Origin: a virus
Virus record (IMG/VR): IMGVR_UViG_3300027763_000011
Coordinates: 1-37,683 of that record
Reading direction: 5' to 3' (one strand)
DNA: 37,683 nt
The notes beneath the pieces are model-generated. The model had not been told where the DNA came from. It searched no databases and saw only the letters and a list, made by a program, of their open reading frames with translations. Positions 4,549 through 37,683 of this stretch are shown here, piece by piece; the stretch's first letter is position 1, and each line of letters begins with the position of its first letter. Position numbers and translations under genes: made by a program.

Positions 4549-6452
4549 ACCATCGGTTGTGCCATCTCGGGAGGAACTTGTCCAGCCATTTCTGGAGTAG
4601 GCAATTGACCTTGGGCCCCCATTAGTTGCTCCTGCTGTCTCATCTTTGCCTTGTCCATTTTCTTGAGCTCGGCAGTAATCGCCCTGGCAGTGTTCGGATC
4701 AATCTGTTCCAGCGCCTGTAAGTGCTGGTTCAAGTGCTGACCAATCGCCTGGGCTGTTGCCTGGTCAATCTGTCGGAATCCTTTTTCTGCAGCCTGCTGG
4801 AAGTCAAAGATGATCTCAAGATGGGCCCGGTGATCGTCGGTCGGCTTGATTGCGATCGGGAACGCGGTCGTCATCATTGCGGCGAGTTCCTTTGCCTGCT
4901 CTTCTCTCTGCTCCTGCTGGTTCATCATCGGGTCCTGGACCAAACGACGTACCAGGCTCGGATCGTCTAGTTCGAGCACAGACTTAACAAGTTCAGCCTG
5001 GTTGATGAACGGAGACTGTCCGAGCAGTTGCATCCGGGCTACTGCCTTCTGGAGTTGGAACTGGCGAGTCTGGAAATCGTACCCACCCTTGGGCATGATC
5101 GAATACTGTTCGTGCAATGCTTCCGGCGGGACGGTCCCGGTATCTTCTGCATAGCGGAAGTTCAGATCCTTCTTGTCGTACTGCAGATAGATCGACCAGC
5201 ACTGACGGAACAGGCGACCTAGCGACATTCGGAAAAGACGGTTTCTTAAATCGGCTCCCGCGGACCCGGTGTTCACCAATGCTTGAATTTCAGTTGCTGT
5301 TTTTCTGGAGCTACCAGGTTCCGCGGGATTGTTGCCGACTCCGAAATCAATTGTTCCAACCCTCTGCTCTGCCTCTGCGCGTTCGTCGTACATGACGCGC
5401 ATGAAGTCCATCGGAGGGGTCGTCATCTGCACAGGCTTGATGCCCTGTGGCAAGATCTGCCCGGGTTGCATCTTGAGATTCGCCATGTTGAGAGAGACAG
5501 GATTGTCGGCCTGGAACAGGGGACGGTTCGCAAGTTCCAGGAAGTCGAGCATGGAGTTTTTCAGCTTCGCCAGGGTCATCTCATTCGCAGCCAGGATCTC
5601 GGCGACCCCGCGTGACGAATAGAATCCTCCGTTGGTCAACTCATAGCTAAACTCTGTGAACGGACACTGCTTATGTTTGTAGGGAAGAACGAAATCTTCA
5701 CGCACTGCCTCGGTCGTTGCTAGGGGCGAGTATGTGCAAACATTCCACTCGTCATCTTCGTTCCTGGTGTAGATCTCCCAAAGGATGATCCGGTCCGGGC
5801 GAGAGTCGTAGGTGATACCTTCACGTTGGTAAACGGCTTGTTCTTTTTCGGTATTGATGCCCTCGAACTTGGTCCCGCGTCCGGCGATCCTTTTGATGAA
5901 GTCCTCGTCCTGGTTGTAGGCCGCGACGCGCTTGTACTGGTCAACGGACAGGACCATGACGTGGCAAAGGTAGTCGGCGTCGTCCAAGGCAACTGTCTGG
6001 TCAGGAACGATGAACCTGGTCGGATCGATCGCCTGGAAAATGATCTCCTTCTTGCCCTCGTCCCAAATTGATTTGAGTACGGAGCGACCGAATAAAAGCA
6101 TGTCGTCGATTAGGCGGACGATCTCAAATTGGAATGCGGTACGCTCCCGGATCTTGTAGTCGAAGTAGCGCTCGGCAGTGACGGTGAGTGGGGCCAGTTG
6201 CTGGCGCATAGGCACAAACCCGGCGACGACGTCGTTGCCCAGGGCTGAGTTGACGTAGTTGGGTTTGAGGCGCTCGATAATACGATCAATCAAAGCGACG
6301 TGCATGTCCGCCGCGGTGGGCCATGGCTTAACCTTGCGACGCATTCCAAACGTTCGCATCTCATAGAACTGCCTCTGCCGGGCGTCCCATGTCGCACGGT
6401 TCTTCAGATCCCGGAGGATGCGCGTATGAAGTTCGTTATTGATTGGTTCCAT
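4545..6452 (-). CDS. Portal protein
   Basis: The portal is the dodecameric ring at the head vertex through which DNA is packaged and ejected. It has 635 residues, the size usual for podovirus connectors. Features include a Trp/Arg-rich N-terminus (NRATWDARQRQFYEMR), a VRLIDDMLLFGRSVLKSIWD segment, YSSRGVAEILAANEMTLAKL in the stem/clip region, GSSRKTATEIQALVNTGSAG, and a long helical Gln-rich C-terminus (about 540-635) typical of barrel regions. AAGGA lies 5 bases before the ATG. It sits between the lysis genes and the scaffold, in the normal terminase-portal-scaffold-capsid order. Confidence 0.88.
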   Translation of the reverse strand: MEPINNELHTRILRDLKNRATWDARQRQFYEMRTFGMRRKVKPWPTAADMHVALIDRIIERLKPNYVNSALGNDVVAGFVPMRQQLAPLTVTAERYFDYKIRERTAFQFEIVRLIDDMLLFGRSVLKSIWDEGKKEIIFQAIDPTRFIVPDQTVALDDADYLCHVMVLSVDQYKRVAAYNQDEDFIKRIAGRGTKFEGINTEKEQAVYQREGITYDSRPDRIILWEIYTRNEDDEWNVCTYSPLATTEAVREDFVLPYKHKQCPFTEFSYELTNGGFYSSRGVAEILAANEMTLAKLKNSMLDFLELANRPLFQADNPVSLNMANLKMQPGQILPQGIKPVQMTTPPMDFMRVMYDERAEAEQRVGTIDFGVGNNPAEPGSSRKTATEIQALVNTGSAGADLRNRLFRMSLGRLFRQCWSIYLQYDKKDLNFRYAEDTGTVPPEALHEQYSIMPKGGYDFQTRQFQLQKAVARMQLLGQSPFINQAELVKSVLELDDPSLVRRLVQDPMMNQQEQREEQAKELAAMMTTAFPIAIKPTDDHRAHLEIIFDFQQAAEKGFRQIDQATAQAIGQHLNQHLQALEQIDPNTARAITAELKKMDKAKMRQQEQLMGAQGQLPTPEMAGQVPPEMAQPMV

Positions 6453-6696
6453 TGTTCCTTGTTCTTACTTCGTATTCTAAATCGTTTATTGTGTGTACTG
6501 CGTCGTATGCCCAGGATTGAACGTTAGGAGTAGATCTTGTGACCTCTTCAAACCTTGGATCGTTGATCAGTCTGTCCGCGTTCCCCGACGTCCTCACCAC
6601 CGGGCTTACGGTTGCGCAACCACCAAGCGCTACCACCGAAAGAAGCGTCAATACGATTGCGAGCGTCCGACCATTCTTTCCTAATTGCGGACTCAT
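6436..6696 (-). CDS. Small lipoprotein, candidate outer-membrane spanin
   Basis: From ATG 6696 the product has 86 residues. The N-terminus is positive (LGKNGR), followed by a hydrophobic helix TLAIVLTLLSVVALGG and the lipobox ALGGC, with the modified Cys at about residue 27. The mature part is 60 polar residues. It overlaps the preceding small membrane gene by 149 bases in another frame, like the embedded Rz1-type spanin arrangement. The neighbouring holin-like gene supports a lysis role. A longer GTG start at 6705 is possible. The lipoprotein call is strong; the spanin role is inference. Confidence 0.7.
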   Translation of the reverse strand: MSPQLGKNGRTLAIVLTLLSVVALGGCATVSPVVRTSGNADRLINDPRFEEVTRSTPNVQSWAYDAVHTINDLEYEVRTRNNGTNQ

Positions 6697-6772
6697 TGCG
6701 CTCACGTTCCCCGGGGAACAATCCTACAATTGCCTTCAGCAATTCGATGAGTGCGCCGATCCACGAAAACAC
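6548..6772 (-). CDS. Small membrane-associated protein, candidate inner-membrane spanin partner
   Basis: The 74-residue frame starts with GTG seven bases after the holin stop. Residues 1-20 (FSWIGALIELLKAIVGLFPG) form a short hydrophobic or amphipathic helix, followed by a charged helical part (ERERNESAIRKEWSDARNRI) and a Trp-containing segment. The lipoprotein gene is largely embedded in it in another frame, as Rz1 is in Rz. The hydrophobic helix is short for a membrane anchor, so the spanin assignment rests mainly on architecture. Confidence 0.5.
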   Translation of the reverse strand: MFSWIGALIELLKAIVGLFPGERERNESAIRKEWSDARNRIDASFGGSAWWLRNRKPGGEDVGERGQTDQRSKV

Positions 6773-20616: not shown

Positions 20617-21006
20617 CTATATCTTCGACAAACTCATCCAGGCAATTGAGTCTTCTGGAGACGCGGAACGTGTCGCTTTCATTTTTCTTGAATCAAATAC
20701 CCACAGCAAATCCTTGTCCAGCGCGACTAGGAATATTAAATCAATGCACTTGCCGTACTTCCTCTTGTCGACTCCGCGCCCGGTGCTGAACTTGTAGCTC
20801 GGGCCCCTTCTGCCACTGCTGTGCAGCCGCGGGGCGCCACACGACTTGACCTGGATTCTTTTGAATGTGCCGTCTTTCTCCGCAACAATATCGTACCCGG
20901 CGTTGTCCTCAAATGGGGTCAACACATTCCACCCGGAAGCGAGGAGTCCTGCGATTACCCTGGCAACTCCTACCGCTCCTGTCTGACGATTACCCGGTTG
21001 GAGCAT
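20617..21006 (-). CDS. PD-(D/E)XK nuclease of the intron-endonuclease type (PDDEXK_5-like)
   Basis: From ATG 21006 the protein has 129 residues: TGAVGVARVIAGLLASGWNV (about 9-28), then PFEDNAGYDIVAEKDG (D39) and FKRIQVKSC (Q52-V-K54). This matches the family pattern G-V-A-I-L-G-V-P, D-x-YDL, R-x-QVK. The Gln in place of Glu is usual for the family. I chose 21006 because the family starts close to the TGAVGVA helix; ATG 21051 and a TTG at 21087 would overlap the lysozyme gene further. The ribosome site is not clear for any start. Confidence 0.72.
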   Translation of the reverse strand: MLQPGNRQTGAVGVARVIAGLLASGWNVLTPFEDNAGYDIVAEKDGTFKRIQVKSCGAPRLHSSGRRGPSYKFSTGRGVDKRKYGKCIDLIFLVALDKDLLWVFDSRKMKATRSASPEDSIAWMSLSKI

Positions 21007-21814
21007 TCCCGAAAAGTCGATATCTGTTCGAGACTCTATTCTGGAGACCATTGAGAAACTTTTTACGTTCCGGGTCCTGCTCCGCAAGCCTTCTCTCGTA
21101 GGTCATCTGCTCGACGGAAACGTTCCTCATTACCTCTGATGGGTTCAATCCCTCCAGGGCCTTGAGCGTCTGAGGCCCAAGGGCTCCGTCATCTTTCACC
21201 CCGATCGCGCGTTGCAGGAACTTTGTCGCCCCTCCGACCCCGCGGTTGAATGCCAGGTCCTGGAAGAAGGGTCGGTAAGGCTCAGGAAGTTTAGACGTGA
21301 AAGGCTTGGTATATTCTACGACGTACCTGGCAGCTGCGTCCCGACGCTCTTCGGGCGGAAGATTCTTCAGCATCTGCGCGGCCGCGGGATGATACTTGTC
21401 ATTGATCCCGGCTACCTCGTAACTCCCGCCCATATCCCCGGAAGGGAGATTGTAGACCATGACGTTCCCGGACTTGTCCTTCCTGGCCTCCATGTCAACC
21501 GTTGCCAGGGCTGAGTCGTATTCGTTCTTCGGAACCTTGGGCCCGACTAGGTTTTGGTCTTGCATAATATTTTTAGTCACTTCGTCCTCCATTGCTCTTT
21601 GTGCTGTCTCTGCACGGATATCGTCCATCGTCGCCGCGGACCGCATGCGCTCAGACATTGCGACCAGGCGCTGACCCTTCTCGTCGGTCCACCCTGCTTT
21701 CTGTGGCTCCCGCATCGGTCTGGATACGTTTTGCCTGTCGAATTCCCCGGCCCCAAATGGGGTGAAATTTCTGCTTGCGCTTAGTTCGGGGATCTGTGTT
21801 AGAATGTTTGCCAT
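20990..21814 (-). CDS. GH108-like muramidase / peptidoglycan-degrading protein
   Basis: The protein has 274 residues. Residues about 185-265 match the C-terminal peptidoglycan-binding part of GH108 lysozymes: LAFNRGVGGATKFLQRAIG (187-205), DGALGPQTLKAL (209-220) and WLNR-like FLNGLQNRVSNRY. The catalytic half is divergent: E109 (TVDMEARKD) followed by GDMGGSYEVAGIN (126-138) fits the E, then D-GG-T-GI order of the family. Residues 1-100 are extra and resemble an internal-virion extension. It could be a virion lysozyme or the endolysin; no other endolysin is seen. AGGA eight bases before the ATG lies in the antisense gene. Confidence 0.75.
   Translation of the reverse strand: MANILTQIPELSASRNFTPFGAGEFDRQNVSRPMREPQKAGWTDEKGQRLVAMSERMRSAATMDDIRAETAQRAMEDEVTKNIMQDQNLVGPKVPKNEYDSALATVDMEARKDKSGNVMVYNLPSGDMGGSYEVAGINDKYHPAAAQMLKNLPPEERRDAAARYVVEYTKPFTSKLPEPYRPFFQDLAFNRGVGGATKFLQRAIGVKDDGALGPQTLKALEGLNPSEVMRNVSVEQMTYERRLAEQDPERKKFLNGLQNRVSNRYRLFGNAPTG
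21797..21805 (+). promoter_or_regulatory. Possible extended -10 promoter for the plus-strand gene
   Basis: TGTTAGAAT matches the extended -10 form (TG, one base, then a hexamer with 5 of 6 bases of TATAAT), directly upstream of ATG 21813. No convincing -35 is seen. Transcription would start near the ATG, giving a leaderless or near-leaderless message. This is a sequence match only. Confidence 0.35.
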
Positions 21815-22088
21815 GAAGAAAATCCTATTGCTGGTCGTCTTATCACTCGGTCACTGTTTCGCCGGGGATATCATCCAGACTTCCGGTGGTGAGTACGCCG
21901 GGTACATCAACGGAAGAATGATCACAACTGCATCCGGCTCCTACGGAGGTGTGATTCTGAACAGAAAGATGATTGTGGATGCTGACAGTTCCTACGGAGG
22001 ATTCGTCACAAGGGGAGGAACAGTTATTGACGCGTCCCAAAACACTACTGGTTTCATTTCCAGATGGAGAGACGTCGACGTCGAGTGA
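21813..22088 (+). CDS. Secreted repeat protein, the only plus-strand gene
   Basis: The protein has 91 residues. The first 18 residues, MKKILLLVVLSLGHCFAG, are a clear signal peptide. The remainder is four tandem repeats of about 17 residues (20-35, 36-52, 53-69, 70-86) with the pattern I, small/Ala, S/Y-G-G, then a hydrophobic strand and Arg, such as TASGSYGGVILNRK and DADSSYGGFVTRGG. This suggests a short beta-solenoid or hairpin stack. It exactly fills the gap between the polyvalent protein and the lysozyme, and its ATG overlaps the lysozyme start on the other strand. It looks like an acquired 'moron'; the function is unknown, possibly envelope modification. Confidence 0.75.
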   Translation: MKKILLLVVLSLGHCFAGDIIQTSGGEYAGYINGRMITTASGSYGGVILNRKMIVDADSSYGGFVTRGGTVIDASQNTTGFISRWRDVDVE

Positions 22089-22090
22089 GG

Positions 22091-25000
22091 TCATTTTTTG
22101 GCCTCCAATTGTTTTTTAATTAACCTAGATTTTACTGCTGATTCGAGGTCTTGAGTCTGAACATTTCCGGCAGTTGCGCCTCGAACTCCGCGTCCAGTTC
22201 GTCCGTCACCGTCCTGTCGGGCCACGCCACGCTCAGGTAGTTCTCCCGCGTTAGGGGTAGTCCCTCCCTCAGTAGGAACCTTACCGCTCCGTCTTGCCCA
22301 GCTAGGGTCTTCAATTCCTCCTGCGAATTTGTTGATTGTATCTCTTGCTTCATCTATTTTTACCTTTCCTTTAGTATAGCTCTTCCAGACGTCGTCGACA
22401 AATGCTTTATTCTTGGCCTGGCCCTTGAACGTCGGCTTGAATAGGCCACGGATTGCCTCCCAGGTTATGCTCTGCATCTCCCGCGGGAGCACTCCTCGCT
22501 CCTTCGCTGCGTTCCTGTAAGCCTCGGCAAATAGCGCGTAGGTTCCAGAGGCTCCGACGATTTTAGATGAGGGCCCTCCGCCAAGGTTGTGAAGCACCTC
22601 CGTAGACCCACCGGACAGTGGCCGGAGTAGCCCGGCCGCGACTGCATGCGTATCAATTGTTACGTCTCCAAATTTGGAATTTGGCTGGAGAATGTTGTTG
22701 AAGAAGTTCCTGACTTTATGCTCTTCGCCAAGCTGGTTGTGGATGTTTTCCCTTGCGCCATTCCCAAGAATGCTAATGCCCTTCTCGATCTGTGGGAACG
22801 ATCCCCATGCCACCTTCCCTTCGCTTCCGTCGTCGTTGAGCTTTTTGCCAAGAGTCTGTCCGTTCGGACTGTAGACGTCGAATGACCTAGAATTGTTTAC
22901 CTCGTCCCAGGCCCTTAAAAACACTGCCTTGTCAAATGTGTCGCTGATCTGATCATATCTCTTGCCCAGCAAATTCTTCTTTGCAGCCTTTGCCAGGATC
23001 GCTCTTTTGGGATCAGACTTCAGCCAATTAAACATTTCGGGAGAAAATACTTCTTTCGACTTGTTGGTATTAATGTCGATAACCCTGTTTGCCAGGGATA
23101 CATTCATAAACCAATCCTTCTGTGGCGACAAGACTGCGAGCACACCGGCATTCTGCCTGGTATTAGTGCCATACTTGCCAGCCCACTCCTCGGAAATTTT
23201 CCTGGCTCCGTCGTACCACTTCTTTGCTTCGTCGCGCAGTTCCGGCTTAAAGGAGTCGTAAAGGTATAGAAGATTGCCCTTAACGTGATCGACGAATTCC
23301 CCAAGGATTCCTTCGGTCGTTTTGCTCTTTGGACTAAAGCCAGGGTAATTCTTAATAAGATCTGCCTGTTTTTTTGCTAGTTCTTTGTCTTTCAGGATGA
23401 CGTCCAGGCCAATCGTCAGCTTCTCTGTTAGTGGATTCTCTGTTGCCTTTACTGCCTTCGGATTCCTCTGACTGACCCAAAACTCTTCGTCTTTTACCTC
23501 TTCCGGGCTTGCCGGGGCAAATTGCTTCTGCTCTTCGCCAAGAATGCTTGATTTTGGCTTGCCCTGTCCGTATGCAGAAAACTCCTTTTCAATTGCTTGC
23601 ATCTTACGCACTCCAGCAACCACTTCGGGAGTAATGTCAACCGACCAGATTGGGACTTGTTCCCTTAATACATTATCTTTAATTTCTGACTCTCCAACCT
23701 TGACGCCAAACTGCTTCATGTACTTACCGATTTCCGCCGGAAGCACTTCGTCGTAAAATTTCTCCATTCCCTCTTTTCTTGGCATCGATGTTCCAGACGG
23801 TGTTTCCTGCATTTTCTTCCAAACCTTATTTGAGAAAACATTGTTTTCGTCTGAAATTCCGGATGCTTTAATCACAGCTTCCAAATCTTCTTTTGTTTTC
23901 ACAAGCCTCACCATTGGGTTGTCGCCCAAATCTTTTACAGGACCATCATTTCTTGTGAAATTTCTTGATTGCACCAAATATCCCTTAACTCCTTCTTCGT
24001 TAAATTCCCTCCAATCCACACGCTCGCTTCCCCATCTTTGGAATTGAGTTGCTCCCTTTGTCCATCCAACAGCTTTTTCCCCGCTATCAACTGCTCTTTC
24101 AAGTATTCTTTTGAATACCTGGATCGGCCAATCCTTGCGAAACGGAGCATCTGGGATGCTTTTATCCGTCATTCTGTTTGCAGAAGCCTTATTCTCGGCC
24201 TCGGCTTTCATTAATTTAACGGCGTCCTCTCCGCTTAATTCTTCAAAAACAAGTGGACTTCCGTATTTTTCTTTTAATTCTTTTCCGACCTTGAAAAGAC
24301 CAGTGTCCTCCATGTACCCATATTTTCTGCCTTCCTGGTGCCTGTCGCTTTGAATCTCTTCTATAAATCTGATTGTCCTGGACGATGCATCTTTTCTTAC
24401 GTTTGTCCTTCCTGTGGCAATAGAATCAATTCCCTCTTTCCCATAGTGTGGGGCATGAAAAATCTCTCCAGATATCGCATTTCCTTTGTACCTTACGGCC
24501 GCCCCATATTGGGAAAATAGTTTCAGAAGTTTTGGCGGAATACTGCCCTCCCATTCAACAACCATTGGATTTGCATCCGATATTCCGTACTCCCGGTCTT
24601 CGTACCCAAGGGCAGCTACATCGCCAAGAAAATCTTCCGCAAATCCCCTGGACGGAAATCTTATTTCAGCAGATGTTGTTTCTTTTGGAAGATGCTTGGA
24701 TAGAATAATTTCTTCTGTTTTAGTCCCTCCAGGAACTTGATATCCGGAATATTGTGGTTGATTCGGCCTGTCTTCCGACATTAAACCCTCAAGCCTGTCT
24801 CCCCTTGCAAACAAGTGTTGAGATTCGTCGGCCAGCTTTCGTTTCTCTTCCTTCGTCGTAGCTTTTTTTGATTCTCGAAGTTTTTGCACAGACAAATCTT
24901 TTAATTTGATGTAGTCAATTTCATCTCTTCTGTTTTGCAGATCTATTAATTCCTTGTACGGTCCAAACTTATCATAAACACTTCCCATCGGCTTTTTTTC

Positions 25001-28000
25001 ATATTCAGACTCGAGAAATTTTAGTCTTTTCGATTCTTCGGCAGACAACGGTTCCATTGAGAAGTCTTTAAGAACTGTTTCCTTAATCTTGGTAAAACCT
25101 TCGCCTGTCAAAAACTTCATCATGTCTTCCTTGCGAACCTTCCCATTTCCTTCGGACGCAAGTTTATCGATTTGATCCATGACCCCACTAAACTTTAGGT
25201 CTTCCTCGTTGACTCCCTTTGCTTTCCCTGGCCTTAGTATTGCTTTTACCTGGTCGGCGTCAGCTATGTCAGGCATCATGTCCCTAATCGCTATAGCCAT
25301 TGAGTAATCTCCGGGCGCCAAGTTCGCGGCCTGCTTCTGGTAGTCGAAGAAGAATCCTGTGCGCCCGGTATCGCGAGAGTTGGCAATGCGGTCCAGGCGA
25401 TAAGATTTGACCAGGCTCCCCGGGGGTCGCCCTTCGGATGCGTACATCGGATTCGCGTTTTTATTTGCCTCGTTCGTGATCCCGAACAGATAGTTGATCG
25501 CGTTGCGCTTATCGATCCCGATCCCTGTCTCTCCGGGTCTTTCGTTGGCATGGTTGTCCAGGTACTGCATGACGTCCTTCTCGTAAGATGCCAAGTCTCC
25601 GCCCCACACCTCGTTGATCCGGCCCTTGCCACTCCTGGCAAAATCAAGCATGCGACCGCGAAGAGCAGATATGTCCACCGCCTGGGCCAAGATGTTCCCG
25701 GCCTTAGATAGGCGCCAGCCCAGGAACGCGATCTCGGATTGTCCAACCTTAATGTTGCCTAATCCGCGCTTAACAGACTGAGCCCAACTGCCATCCTCGC
25801 CTGTGCCGACCTTCTGGTACCAGACAGAATGTGTCTTACCCTCCTGGCGGCTATCTTGAAGGGTCTTAGCTACTTCCTTTGTGAAATCATTAAAACTGTC
25901 GAGGTTAAAGAATCCCTCTGGGAGGGTATTGCCCCCAACGTATGGTTTGCCGTCAGACTGAATTTTGACGCCAAACTCAGGGCTCCCGCGCTCCAGGACA
26001 GCGTCCGGATTGTAGAGGCGCCCAACGTCCGCCACCCTGGCCTTGTCAACTGCCAGGATCGATGCCGGATCTTTAGCTCGGACAGTGCCGTCCGGGAACC
26101 TGACAGCAAAATCGTTCTCCTCGAGATTTGTCTTCCTGTTGCGAGTGAACTGGATCGCTGGATTGTTCGCCAGGTTCCTGTTGCCAGGCCCCGGAACTAG
26201 CGTCACGTCCTTCTGCTTTTCTGCCTTCTCTAGTCCGTCAAGATACTTGTCACGGTCCCGGAACCATCTTGAGGTCAACTCTCGAAGCTGTTTGGACGGA
26301 ACCAGGGGGTTGTCCTTGAATAGCGTGTCAATATTTGTCGGCTTGGGCCCTGTCGTATCGATCCCGAACTTATTCAAAAGCCTTCCAACAGGGGCCAAGA
26401 ATCCTTCCTGGAGAGATAAGAGATTCGTCCCAGGCAGTGTTCTGCGACGAAGTGAGTCAAGATCCCTACCGCGGGACTCGCCCACAAACTGCTCCGCCAG
26501 GATCTCGTCCGCGATCCAATCAAGATCCCCGGCTCCAGGCTCCGACCGTTGAGACGCTTCTCTTAGTTCGTTCGCCTTGGCTCGTACCTCGGCCTCGGTT
26601 GGGGCTCCTCTGCCCTGGCGCTCACCCTCAAGAAGTTTCCTGGCGTACTCGTTCCCCCTCCTGCGAAGACCCTCTTCACCGTACTCAGTCATGACTGCCA
26701 TGCGACCCTCGGACTTATTGATCGCAGGAGACTTCTGAATTGCGTGTAAAATCTCATGTCTCACCGTGTCTCCGGTGGACCTCTTGTCGTCCATGTTAAT
26801 CAGCAGTCTGAATTTACCGCTCTTGTCCTGCACTCCCTTAACAACTCCGGCCGCGTTGATCCCGGCATTCTCGGGCATCATGAACGAATCGCGACCGTGG
26901 AATTCAACCTGTACGTCCGGTGCCATCATCTGGAGCGTCGCGGCGTCCAGGAATGGACGATTATCCTTGCGGACATAGTCGGCAATCTTGTTTACGTCTA
27001 GGCCAAGATCCGCCTGCCTTGCAAACAATCTGTTGACGTCACCCTGCTTTGCGAGCGCCTTCTTTGCCGGGATCGCTGCGACTCCCTTGACCGCTCCGCC
27101 AAGTCCTCCAAGACCTCCTCCAATAACCAATCCGCCTCCGATCCCCTCTTCTTCTCCCCCCGACGCAACATAGCCCAACCCTGCGCCGACGGCCGCAGAT
27201 TTGACAGCGCCCTTGCCTGTCTCCAGGCCAAGTTCCGCGGCCCCTTGCGTGATCGGAGAAGATACGATCGATGTGTTCGCGGCCTTTCTAAGCCACTCAG
27301 GATTCTTCTGGTTCTTCGCGACGCGCTCCATGATGGTCATCCTGGACGGTCCTGTCATCGCCTCTTCCCCCGCAATCCGGACTGCCTGGGCTCCGCGTTC
27401 GGCAATCTCCGCCCCGGCCCTAACTCCTGCAACTTTGGCTCCGATCGGGAATGCCCCGGGGATACCTATCGCGGCCGCTCCTGTGGCAATTGCTCCGGCA
27501 GTCTTTGGAGCGGTTACTCCGGGAAGAACACGCTGGATTCCTTGCCCAACCTTTTCGACTCCGTAGTCAATTGCTCCTCCTGTTGCTCTAGCTGCTGTCT
27601 CGATCCCCCCGGCAACTCTTGTCCCCGCCCTGAGTGCTCTTCCACCAACAGACGCAGCCTTTGCCTCTGGCCCAACAAATGGAATCGCAATTGTAGGGTC
27701 CAGGAACATGCTTCCTAGCTCCGCAGCTTTTGGCGCAAATGCTCCTTCCGGCAAGCCAATCACGCTCTTACCTTGCGCCCTTTTCGCATTGATTTTATCG
27801 ATCGCATCCATCTGATAATTTTGATCGATTGTTTTTTGGTTTAGGTACGACTTGTAATCGTTCTGCAATCCCAATGCCCCGGCTGCCATATATGGAGCTT
27901 TTTCAATAAACTTCGACGCCCCGGCAACCATTGTTCCGAGATCCATTGTGCCCCTCGCCGCGGCCTCAAGAACCGTTCCAGCAAGTTTCGGGGACAGCGG

Positions 28001-28369: not shown

Positions 28370-29338
28370 CTAGCGGTTTTGAATTACCTTGCGAGTGCGA
28401 GGATCGTATCCGCCAAATCCTGTGGGATTCATTGGACGTTGCGCGGGTTGTTGTGGTGCCTGCTGTTGCCCAGCCTGTCTCGGTCGCTGACCTTGCGCTT
28501 GATCGTCCTGGTTCGACTTTGGCAACTCGACTGTTCTACCGGCAATGCTCTTATAGTCTTCAGCCCTTGCCTTGAGCCTTGTCCTCATGCTCTTGATTGC
28601 AGCGAGTGTTGTTGCTGTTGTAGGCCCTGTGACTGGATTATTAAAACCAACAGATACAGGAGTTGTTCCCATCGGAATGGCAAACTTCCTGGCCGCCTCA
28701 ACTTCGCCCTCTCTTGCCACAGATCCTGGATCAAGGACCTTCGCCAAAGATACTGCGAATAGGTAAGGAATTTGCTTTAGTGTTGCGGACCCCTCCGGGT
28801 CCATGGTTTCAAAATTTCCATACTTTTTAACAGTATTCTCGAGCTCGTCCGCCATGCGGTATGCTTCACGGATATTTGACTCAAACGCAAAATCTGCCTG
28901 TGTCAATTCCTTGCCTTTAGCGACTAGGGCTTTCTCGCCAGCATCGGCAACGCTCATCATAATTCTACGTTTCTCAGGATCTGGCTCCATCATTGCCTTT
29001 TCCTTATAATACTTAACTTTGTTGACCTGGCGATCTACATATGCGTCGACAAGTTCCTCTGGAAGCCCAGCCGGGACTACGATGCTAGTTCCTGGCGCTG
29101 TCCTTGTCCCTGTGGTTTCGGCGAGTCTGTTCATCAGCGCGGCCTGTTCAACAGGGTCGGAAGACTGTATTAGTGCTTGACCAACTCGCTTTGCTTCCTG
29201 CTCTGGATAAAGTTTCTGCTTCAGCATTTCGACGCGGAGTTGACGATCTTGGTCTTCTAGTGCCTGACGTTGCTCTTCTCTCCTGTAGTAGTCTTCTCTC
29301 CAGGGTAGTGTGATTAGCGGTCTTTGAACTTCTGCCAT
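28370..29338 (-). CDS. Internal virion protein (putative)
   Basis: The protein has 322 residues and is largely helical. The N-terminus is charged (WREDYYRREEQRQALEDQDR), the middle has LAKVLDPGSVAREGEVEAARKF, a motif I know from podovirus head-interior proteins, and the C-terminus (270-322) is Gln/Pro-rich and disordered. It lies between two larger internal-virion-type genes. No enzymatic motif is seen. Confidence 0.7.
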   Translation of the reverse strand: MAEVQRPLITLPWREDYYRREEQRQALEDQDRQLRVEMLKQKLYPEQEAKRVGQALIQSSDPVEQAALMNRLAETTGTRTAPGTSIVVPAGLPEELVDAYVDRQVNKVKYYKEKAMMEPDPEKRRIMMSVADAGEKALVAKGKELTQADFAFESNIREAYRMADELENTVKKYGNFETMDPEGSATLKQIPYLFAVSLAKVLDPGSVAREGEVEAARKFAIPMGTTPVSVGFNNPVTGPTTATTLAAIKSMRTRLKARAEDYKSIAGRTVELPKSNQDDQAQGQRPRQAGQQQAPQQPAQRPMNPTGFGGYDPRTRKVIQNR

Positions 29339-29364: not shown

Positions 29365-31446
29365 TTATCCGAAAAATCCCTTTGGCCCGGCTAGTCCGCC
29401 TATGCCACTAAGAATGTTGGCTCCAGCATTAAGATATTGCGGAGTGGAATTTGCCGCGTTCGTAGTCGCCTGGGCCTGAACGTAGGCACCGTAAGTCCTC
29501 GCCAGGTAATCGGCTTCGCTACCATAAAGAGCAGTAGCATTCTGGGCGCCCCTAAATCCTGCCATCGGATCGACGTACATGTATGGGATGTTTGCTGTCG
29601 TTCCTCCACCGAATGTTCCTGTTGTCGTTGTCCCGGCCCCTGCAACGAGTGCGGCAAGTCCTCCACTTTGTTCCGCAGCCCGGCGATTTGCCATATTGTA
29701 CATGGTGGCTCCGGACGCGGTAAAGTCAGCAGCCGCACCAAGCCTATTGAGCGTTGCGGCCTCGCGGAATGCCTTATCTCTTCTGAGCGCGTCTGTCACG
29801 CTTTGACCGGAAGACAGGAAGCTGGACGCTGCTCCGAGCCTTTCCCGCATCCTGGCCTCACCAGCAAGCCCGGTCGTAACAGCCTCTTCAACGGCTGGGG
29901 CAACTCCAAATATGTTACCCCTGGCAGTCTGTGCTCCCCTGGCTGCTTGCTCGTACTGCCTACGCTCTTCGGCGTCGAGTTGAGATCCTAGCGCAACTTG
30001 TGCAGTAAGTTTGTCCTGAATGTCCCTGCGTAAAGCCTCTGTAGCCGGATCTGTCGTCTCGCCAATATCGGCCTTTGCCAGTTCAGCGTATCCCTTTGTA
30101 AGGTTGCCAATCATATCGGCAGTCGCTGGGTCGATCTGCCTTATTTCGTCCATCATTCTTTGCTCTGGAAGCAGGAGCGATTCTCGGAAAGTTTTCAGAA
30201 CACCAGCACCCTCTTCCACTGTTGTTGGCTTGTAGTTATCAACTAGACCCTTTGTCGTTGCGACGTCTTCGTTGACAGAGTTTAGCTTGGACTGAAGATC
30301 AGCTATAAATTTGTTGTTAAGATCAATCCTCCTGTCGCCAGCCGGAAGATCTTTTCCGTACTGAGTCGCCTCGTCAATTTGACTCTTTAAATCAGAAGCT
30401 ATAGAGTTTGCCTTTGTGTAGAGCTCGTCGTACTTTGCCTTTGTCCTAGAATTAATGTCATCCAAGATTTGCTGATCGGTGACATTGATGTTCAGCTTGC
30501 CAAGAAGTTTGCTTCCGCTTTCTTTTGTTGCTACGTCAAACTTTAAATTTGCAAGAGCATTGTCCAGCGCCTTCATGTCCTCTTCTGGAATTTTTCCAAT
30601 TCCAGGAGAAAGGTCCTGAATGTTTACTCTTGTTACAAGCTCCGCAATTTGGGGGGCTCCCTGACTCGCCTCGGCAAGTAATCTTGTTAGTTTCTTTTCT
30701 TCTTCAAATGCAAGTCCTTTTTGTGATTGTTGCTGAGAACTATTATTTTTATACTTTGAAATTTGGGCTTTAGATTGAGCGACAATTTCTTTTTGCGCTT
30801 CTATTTGATTCAGTTTTGACTCAACGTCTCCAATTTTATCAATAATATCTATTGCATTTTTACTTAAATTCCCGGTCTTAAAATCTCTTACGAGCCTAGC
30901 CGCGTCCTTTAGCGTTTGCGCGTCGGTGGAATTAAGATTGTTTACCCCAACCTTCTGGGCCGCGCTCAACGCGGTTGTGTAGTAATTTAATGCCTGTAGT
31001 AAATTGTCTGGCTTTTTTTCTAGCTCAGATACTTTTGTAATTTTCGGTTGTTGAAATTGATATTCTTTATTTGCCTTTGCAATGTCGAACCCTTGAATTG
31101 TTATTTTTGGATAATCTGACTTCCCTGTTTTACTGTCATAAACCTTTGGCTTGGTTGTGTCTGCCACTGTTGTTGGTTTCGACTTATATTCAGCCGGATC
31201 TAGCTTATATACGTCCTTGATTAGGCTTTCTTCGGCCTTGGCTTTATTAAATACACCCTTTGCATTTACAGAGGACGAGAAGTCCGTCATCCCCATTGAT
31301 TGCAATCTAGTTATGTCTGGAGCTGCCTTAGTCGCAGCAGCAATATTGTATCCAGATGCCTTAAAGATTTCTGGATCGATTTTTAGAGTGTCCTTAATGT
31401 AGGCCGCTCTTTGTTCTGCTGTTTGTGCTGGTGCTTTTGCTGCCAT
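29365..31446 (-). CDS. Large helical internal virion protein (putative)
   Basis: The protein has 693 residues. Long coiled-coil-prone segments cover about 190-450 (for example IEAQKEIVAQSKAQISKYKNN and FIADLQSKLNSVNEDVATTK), and the C-terminal part (480-690) is Ala/Gly-rich with GVAPAVEEAVTTGLAGEARMRERLGA and ends GIGGLAGPKGFFG. It has no globular enzyme motif. Size, composition and neighbours suggest a protein ejected with DNA to form a channel, as in podoviruses. The stop lies 27 bases before the next start. Confidence 0.75.
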   Translation of the reverse strand: MAAKAPAQTAEQRAAYIKDTLKIDPEIFKASGYNIAAATKAAPDITRLQSMGMTDFSSSVNAKGVFNKAKAEESLIKDVYKLDPAEYKSKPTTVADTTKPKVYDSKTGKSDYPKITIQGFDIAKANKEYQFQQPKITKVSELEKKPDNLLQALNYYTTALSAAQKVGVNNLNSTDAQTLKDAARLVRDFKTGNLSKNAIDIIDKIGDVESKLNQIEAQKEIVAQSKAQISKYKNNSSQQQSQKGLAFEEEKKLTRLLAEASQGAPQIAELVTRVNIQDLSPGIGKIPEEDMKALDNALANLKFDVATKESGSKLLGKLNINVTDQQILDDINSRTKAKYDELYTKANSIASDLKSQIDEATQYGKDLPAGDRRIDLNNKFIADLQSKLNSVNEDVATTKGLVDNYKPTTVEEGAGVLKTFRESLLLPEQRMMDEIRQIDPATADMIGNLTKGYAELAKADIGETTDPATEALRRDIQDKLTAQVALGSQLDAEERRQYEQAARGAQTARGNIFGVAPAVEEAVTTGLAGEARMRERLGAASSFLSSGQSVTDALRRDKAFREAATLNRLGAAADFTASGATMYNMANRRAAEQSGGLAALVAGAGTTTTGTFGGGTTANIPYMYVDPMAGFRGAQNATALYGSEADYLARTYGAYVQAQATTNAANSTPQYLNAGANILSGIGGLAGPKGFFG

Positions 31447-36358: not shown

Positions 36359-36586
36359 CTAATTCCCTAAACGATTTTTAAGCATGTCCCAGGCTATTGA
36401 ACAGATCAGTCCAATAATCCCGGCTATGGCTAGCGCCTTTGTCCGGAAGTGCTCTAATGCAGAAACTCTATTTACCACATCCGCGTACTTTGACAAGCTG
36501 GTCTCGACCATTTTGTACAACTGGACCTGGCGCTCTTCCATCCGGGCCAATTTGACCTCTATGCTCCAGACCTGGTCATCACTCAT
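36359..36586 (-). CDS. XhlA-like coiled-coil membrane protein
   Basis: The protein has 75 residues. A charged coiled coil (VKLARMEERQVQLYKMVETSL, residues 12-32) is followed by one membrane helix near the C-terminus (ALAIAGIIGLICSIAWDML, 51-69). This order, coiled coil first, is that of haemolysin XhlA-type proteins that accompany holins in Bacillus phages. The start overlaps the upstream lipoprotein stop as ATGA. It may be a second lysis protein or a membrane anchor for entry. Confidence 0.7.
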   Translation of the reverse strand: MSDDQVWSIEVKLARMEERQVQLYKMVETSLSKYADVVNRVSALEHFRTKALAIAGIIGLICSIAWDMLKNRLGN

Positions 36587-37427: not shown

Positions 37428-37683
37428 TTAATTAAATGGATAACTTTTGCCAGCCCCAGCGTTGTAAAGAGATGTAATTTCTGATGCCGATAATTCTTTA
37501 TTCCAAATTCCAACTTCGTCTATTGTGCAATCTTTTCCAACCGCAAAACTTCCATCAGCATTCCCATTTAATGAAACATTTTCTGTTGGAATATTTGCGT
37601 AATTTCCAGATGAAGAGATAGAACCATCTAATGCTCCATTCACATAAACTTTAAGAGAACCAGTTCTTTTCCAAGTCATTGCA
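37428..37683 (-). CDS. LamG/concanavalin-like protein 1, C-terminal part
   Basis: This completes the gene that begins at 529 and crosses the contig ends. After MTWKRTGSLKVYVNGALDG it has SLNGNADGSFAVGKD, then IDEVGIWNKELSASEI and the shared end SLYNAGAGKSYPFN. IDEVGIWNKEL followed by SLYN is the last-strand signature of LamG-type repeats. The 32 bases at 37652-37683 duplicate positions 1-32 and should be counted once. Confidence 0.85.
   Translation of the reverse strand, partial: AMTWKRTGSLKVYVNGALDGSISSSGNYANIPTENVSLNGNADGSFAVGKDCTIDEVGIWNKELSASEITSLYNAGAGKSYPFN
37652..37683. repeat. Contig-end direct repeat (right copy)
   Basis: Identical to positions 1-32. Trimming one copy yields a circle of 37,651 bases with an intact gene across the join. 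Confidence 0.9.

Follow-up and report, generated by a model that had tools for sequence, protein, structure and literature searches.

Does the open reading frame (ORF) on the plus strand at 21813-22088 of this freshwater-type phage genome encode a protein and, if so, what might that protein do during infection? The original prediction held it to be a real gene, alone on its strand, and coding selection together with retention of the frame in 18 close relatives agree with that view. The window (the whole stretch of DNA that was analysed, 37,683 nucleotides of a record classed as virus) also has the predicted layout: the ATG of the frame shares two bases with that of the neighbouring lysozyme gene (CATG), and a two-base gap separates its stop, which ends at 22088, from the polyvalent gene stop, which starts at 22091 (Table 1). 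The translated product is MKKILLLVVLSLGHCFAGDIIQTSGGEYAGYINGRMITTASGSYGGVILNRKMIVDADSSYGGFVTRGGTVIDASQNTTGFISRWRDVDVE. Pooled dN/dS of the plus frame is 0.23 in allele class A (8 alleles), 0.16 in class B, and 0.25 in class C, and comparison of the alleles reveals internal stops in the other frames of the region. Judged by these sequence comparisons, the ORF is coding and its plus frame is under purifying selection, the constraint lying on that frame itself and not on the minus strand alone. An antisense 83-aa ORF (21843-22094) was considered as a coding candidate and rejected; it has no Pfam match, and the antisense frames hold stops in this region. The data support a real secreted repeat protein encoded on its own strand, here termed SEC.

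Table 1 Coordinates of SEC, its sequence elements, and the genes discussed with it
Feature	Position in window	Strand	Basis or remark
SEC, gene for 91-aa secreted four-repeat protein	21813..22088	+	Frame kept in 18 relatives; dN/dS 0.16-0.25
Putative promoter TTGCGC-N19-TAGAAT with TG extension	21775..21805	+	Inside lysozyme coding sequence, 7 nt before ATG
Signal peptide MKKILLLVVLSLGHCFA	21813..21863	+	Sequence; likely signal-peptidase-I site between CFA and GD
Four 17-residue repeats, residues 20-87	21870..22073	+	Periodicity; AlphaFold2 prediction of 8 strands as 4 hairpins
Terminator-like hairpin GAGGTCATTTTTTGGCCTC with T tract	22087..22105	+	Weak, z -1.4; overlaps polyvalent 3' end
Lysozyme/endolysin-type gene, head-to-head with SEC	20990..21814	-	PG_binding_3; PHROG endolysin
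Polyvalent protein, 2090 aa	22091..28363	-	3' module starts ~20 bp from SEC
Polyvalent N-terminal 570 aa	26653..28363	-	Co-segregates with SEC class C versus A/B
Gene 28370, 322-aa protein, putative ejection/inner-virion	28370..29338	-	Role by gene order; two types

Several other features describe the genome in which SEC resides. A 32-bp direct repeat at the two ends (1-32 and 37652-37683) indicates a circular or terminally redundant contig, and a LamG-type gene spans the contig join. Two overlapping small ORFs at 6436-6772, of which one has a lipobox (LSVVALGGC), resemble a pair of spanin-type lysis genes, and a possible holin is encoded at 36359-36586 (75 aa, partly coiled, with a membrane segment at its C-terminus). 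TerL is nearest to Akkermansia phages (39%) and the major capsid protein to Bacillus and other phages (~25%); since these two markers are nearest to different phages, no host was called.

SEC is a genuine gene that a phage group carries as a fixed trait. Close relatives were defined as 18 viral contigs with lysozymes at 87% to 98% identity; all 18 carry SEC at the same site with its frame kept, and no empty site was seen among them. The idea that SEC was recently acquired, or is an insertion, does not survive this distribution, nor the presence of an antisense secreted gene in the same layout beside lysozyme at 61 of 61 more distant loci. The distant set comprised 62 lysozyme loci (45% to 60% identity), 61 of which had enough downstream sequence; each of the 61 has an antisense ORF of 113 to 148 aa with an MK start, a signal peptide, and a stop at most 16 nt from the lysozyme stop. 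These genes lie on the opposite side of the lysozyme gene from SEC, and no locus with secreted antisense genes on both sides was seen among those examined. The secreted genes of both sister groups always run opposite to the other genes.

Homology between SEC and the distant secreted proteins was rejected, as the full-length hhalign value of 74% fell to 1.2% without signal peptides; the similarity is therefore one of signal peptides only, and hhalign detected no homology to SEC in the mature sequences of families D1-D6. Like SEC, the proteins of the distant families (D1-D7) have a signal peptide and short repeats and are encoded by lone opposite-strand genes that adjoin lysozyme and carry a leaderless-type promoter, but they differ in having a 14-residue period and a helix followed by 10 predicted strands. 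On the models, both may be petal barrels. The seventh family (L034-L042, e.g., L034:5692-6138, minus strand), 148 aa in length with a long charged N-terminal part, is unlike the other six. Since the mature sequences on the two sides of lysozyme are unrelated, the sister groups fill either flank with unrelated secreted repeat proteins, and an antisense secreted gene beside lysozyme looks, from the compared loci, like a hallmark of the phage group. Both the SEC family and its layout are new. No bacterial homologues or prophages with SEC were found, and no antisense secreted ORF was found near the only two bacterial lysozymes picked up (Calothrix and Nostoc, both at 37%). A match to Shewanella phage MSO-5 (E 2) falls inside a DUF2184 gene and was discarded as chance.

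The extended -10 expected just before the SEC ATG is present (TGTTAGAAT, 21797-21805), though with a weak -35 (TTGCGC) that lies across a spacer of 19 nt; scanning strictly for sigma-70 promoters returned nothing. The promoter core is conserved in relatives; SEC probably has its own promoter, with a spacing that, taken at face value, implies a leaderless mRNA. Synonymous variation is low in lysozyme codons 5-16 (0.41) but equally low at other gene starts, and so does not by itself point to promoter constraint within the lysozyme gene. In the distant clade, TTGAC is found upstream of the antisense secreted gene in 40 of 40 distinct genes, and in 39 of these its first base lies 34 to 36 nt before the ATG, which places the start of transcription at the ATG (leaderless). 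The same pattern precedes a VRR-type nuclease gene of the recombination module and a small adjoining ORF and is rare elsewhere, suggesting a host-type promoter of an early, recombination module; leaderless-type TTGAC right at the ATG of the nuclease gene or small ORF occurs at L043:6655, L046:6568, L094:6528, and others. The distant antisense secreted genes are probably leaderless and expressed early. For the clade of the window, whose element is weaker than the TTGAC of the distant clade, promoter function is our inference from these motifs.

A signal peptide followed by four 17-residue repeats had been predicted for the product, and this part stands; the SYGG core said to be common to all four repeats does not, as SYGG is present only in repeats 2 and 3, with EYAG in repeat 1 and NTTG in repeat 4. 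The best offset in the mature chain (72 to 74 aa) is 17, with a mean BLOSUM62 score of 1.16 per residue (p = 0.0002, from shuffles over offsets 8-29). The 17-residue period is also found in class B alleles and was not seen by the same sequence analysis in class C alleles. The residues C15-F-A-G-D are invariant across SEC alleles. A lipoprotein was rejected because a canonical lipobox (G/A/S before Cys) is missing, the residue preceding C15 being H, N, or R in all alleles, and by signal-peptide rules cleavage by signal peptidase I appears likelier than lipidation. AlphaFold2, run with 15 alleles, models mature SEC as all-beta, with 8 short strands in four hairpins (mean pLDDT 78, and 85 to 91 in the mature blocks, residues 21-80). 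Structural searches of the PDB and BFVD, Foldseek included, returned no significant match.

The repeat had been described as unfamiliar; SEC does resemble the beta-flower families, with matches below threshold. Beta-flowers are known from predicted models of shallow barrels built from hairpin petals, with 8, 10, or 12 strands and a semiconserved [DNEQ]xxG tip; the families, which include PF21785 (5-fold) and PF21784 (4-fold) in Pfam, belong to clan CL0395 with the Tubby C-terminal domain and are without a tested function in the study that describes them (PMC10584680). SEC matches PF21785 at 22.4 bits (E 1e-4, profile positions 34-96 of 112), below the cut-off of 38, and this profile matches 8 of 15 SEC alleles at E < 1. 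PF21784 (cut-off 25 bits) likewise stays below its cut-off, with a match to a single class C allele (14.1 bits, E 0.065). Like beta-flowers, SEC has short repeats each predicted to form a beta-hairpin, tips similar to [DNEQ]xxG at some repeats (EYAG, NYGG, and NTTG), and an export signal, as do some known members. Unlike them it is phage-borne, and its 8 predicted strands contrast with its better profile match, which is to the family with ten short antiparallel strands and fivefold symmetry. From profiles and model, SEC is best called beta-flower-like and not a member; no paper joining beta-flowers and phages was found in the library searched.

Within the clade of the window, the mature domain of SEC occurs as three allele classes (A, B, and C) between conserved ends, comprising the signal peptide and the last ~30 bp. 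In the mature region, class A shares 33% to 55% DNA identity with class B or C, and the mature domains of different classes are only 30% to 40% identical. Lysozyme and the polyvalent 3' module are shuffled independently of SEC class, each of the three types of 3' module being found alongside class A as well as class C. The 3' part of the polyvalent gene (22091-25200) is swapped for non-homologous modules among otherwise ~90% identical phages.

The strongest new clue to the role of SEC comes from the virion module of the phage itself, one gene of which co-segregates with SEC. Among ~45 genes or segments compared across 18 related records, the split of class C from classes A and B is tracked only by gene 28370 and the N-terminal part of the polyvalent protein, 5 to 7 kb from SEC. 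The distance for 28370 is 0.46 between SEC classes and 0.13 within them; for the polyvalent protein, the association is strong over aa 1-570 and weak over aa 571-760 (p = 0.0005 for the weak last segment, and p < 0.0005 for the segments before it and for 28370), and none of the other virion, tail, replication, and lysozyme genes tested reached p < 0.05. Mantel correlations with SEC are 0.78 for 28370 (p = 0.0006), 0.56 to 0.61 for the first polyvalent segments, 0.14 for lysozyme, 0.10 for the adjacent polyvalent 3' segment, and -0.11 for polyvalent aa 761-950. Type II of 28370, which is 96% to 98% identical within class C genomes and 50% to 59% identical to type I, is present in five of five class C genomes with the region and in none of 12 others (Fisher p = 0.00016, or 0.0007 without near-clones). 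On the backbone tree class C needs four changes, and 28370 type II changes alongside in three of three independent pairs; with only three to four independent origins of class C, the sign test alone (p = 0.25) has too few. Strong correlations also exist between a few other pairs of genes that lie far apart, mostly within one module or in few genomes, and double crossovers could maintain linkage of the flanks in the absence of any function. The distant clade was rejected as an independent covariation test: its deep lineages make nearly everything correlate, and its secreted gene follows lysozyme as closely as it does the upstream ORF. Classes A and B have the same 28370 type, and no tested gene separates them; allele and partner are therefore not one-to-one, which is the main gap of the partner model.

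The order of genes (tail genes, 31448, 29365, 28370, polyvalent) suggests that the polyvalent protein and the 28370 product are podovirus inner-virion or ejection proteins. Database searches returned no recognised homologue of 28370 and no match supporting an ejection role for either protein. Within the putative ejection module, the 693-aa gene at 29365-31446 is highly divergent among close relatives, its C-terminal part being at 25% to 60% for most of them, and does not track SEC class.

Superinfection exclusion at genome entry would be expected to involve just such a protein: secreted, probably early, and matched by class to the putative ejection proteins of the phage that encodes it. Our main reading, with a probability of roughly 0.4, is that SEC is an early periplasmic superinfection-exclusion protein that acts at this step. 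A host-type promoter would drive SEC from a leaderless mRNA soon after entry, independently of the minus-strand operons, and the product would be exported to the periplasm and fold as a small 4-petal beta-barrel. There it would bind the ejection apparatus of incoming related phages (the 28370 product and the polyvalent N-terminus) and stop their DNA from crossing the envelope, so shielding the infected cell from rival phages. SEC would thus act like T4 Spackle (gp61.3), an early, periplasmic, helical protein of 75 aa when mature that inhibits the tail lysozyme (PMC7677548), though its predicted fold is unrelated to that of Spackle and its partner is probably a different one. Both are small, exported, and lysozyme-linked, with mature chains of ~75 aa, and SEC, too, is presumably early; however, Spackle is helical with gp5 lysozyme as its conserved partner, whereas the predicted fold of SEC is all-beta and its class follows 28370 instead of lysozyme. 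More doubtfully, a whole group of uncultured phages would carry, as a fixed trait, one early leaderless gene that runs opposite to all others and encodes a small secreted beta-repeat protein; these proteins, of mutually unrelated families, would lock entry by self/non-self recognition, each matched to the ejection proteins of the phage that makes it.

Common adaptation to a host type would give the same data: SEC could act on the host envelope, in keeping with the original prediction, at some feature that varies (a receptor, a surface polymer, or a periplasmic protease), and the polyvalent N-terminus and 28370 would be fitted to that host type as well, co-segregating with SEC without direct contact. 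Secretion, as read from the sequence, strong diversification of the mature domain between conserved ends, and co-segregation with putative entry proteins are all compatible with this explanation, but tail genes, for which an association with host type would likewise be expected, do not follow SEC class where testable, and we consider it unlikely. Inhibition of lysozyme in the periplasm in the manner of T4 Spackle, whether of superinfecting phages' lysozyme or of the phage's own, would suit a gene that adjoins lysozyme in both clades, at a different site in each, a mature size of 72 to 74 aa near the 75 of Spackle (PMC7677548), and a weak structural similarity to the eight-stranded PliC/MliC inhibitor fold (3oe3, Z 3.8, rmsd 3.8, 71 aligned). 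This Z is below the meaningful range and at noise level, Spackle is helical, and lysozyme does not covary with SEC class (0.061 between, 0.058 within), remaining invariant to class despite SEC mature domains only 30% to 40% identical, all of which renders inhibition improbable. There is similarly little probability that the 28370 association is historical linkage only, with SEC another envelope-acting early protein (for host takeover, stress relief, or lysis aid) whose variants are kept frequency-dependently or neutrally; the few independent origins of class C and the failure of any tested gene to separate A and B would fit, but linkage is gone at the immediate neighbours yet strong 5 to 7 kb away.

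If superinfection exclusion by SEC is true, beta-flower-like proteins would gain a testable role, and a beta-repeat class would join the few secreted exclusion proteins of known mechanism, with its likely target, the ejection proteins, named from population data alone. It would also show that a lone reverse-strand ORF can mark a phage group; gene callers may drop such ORFs as antisense noise.
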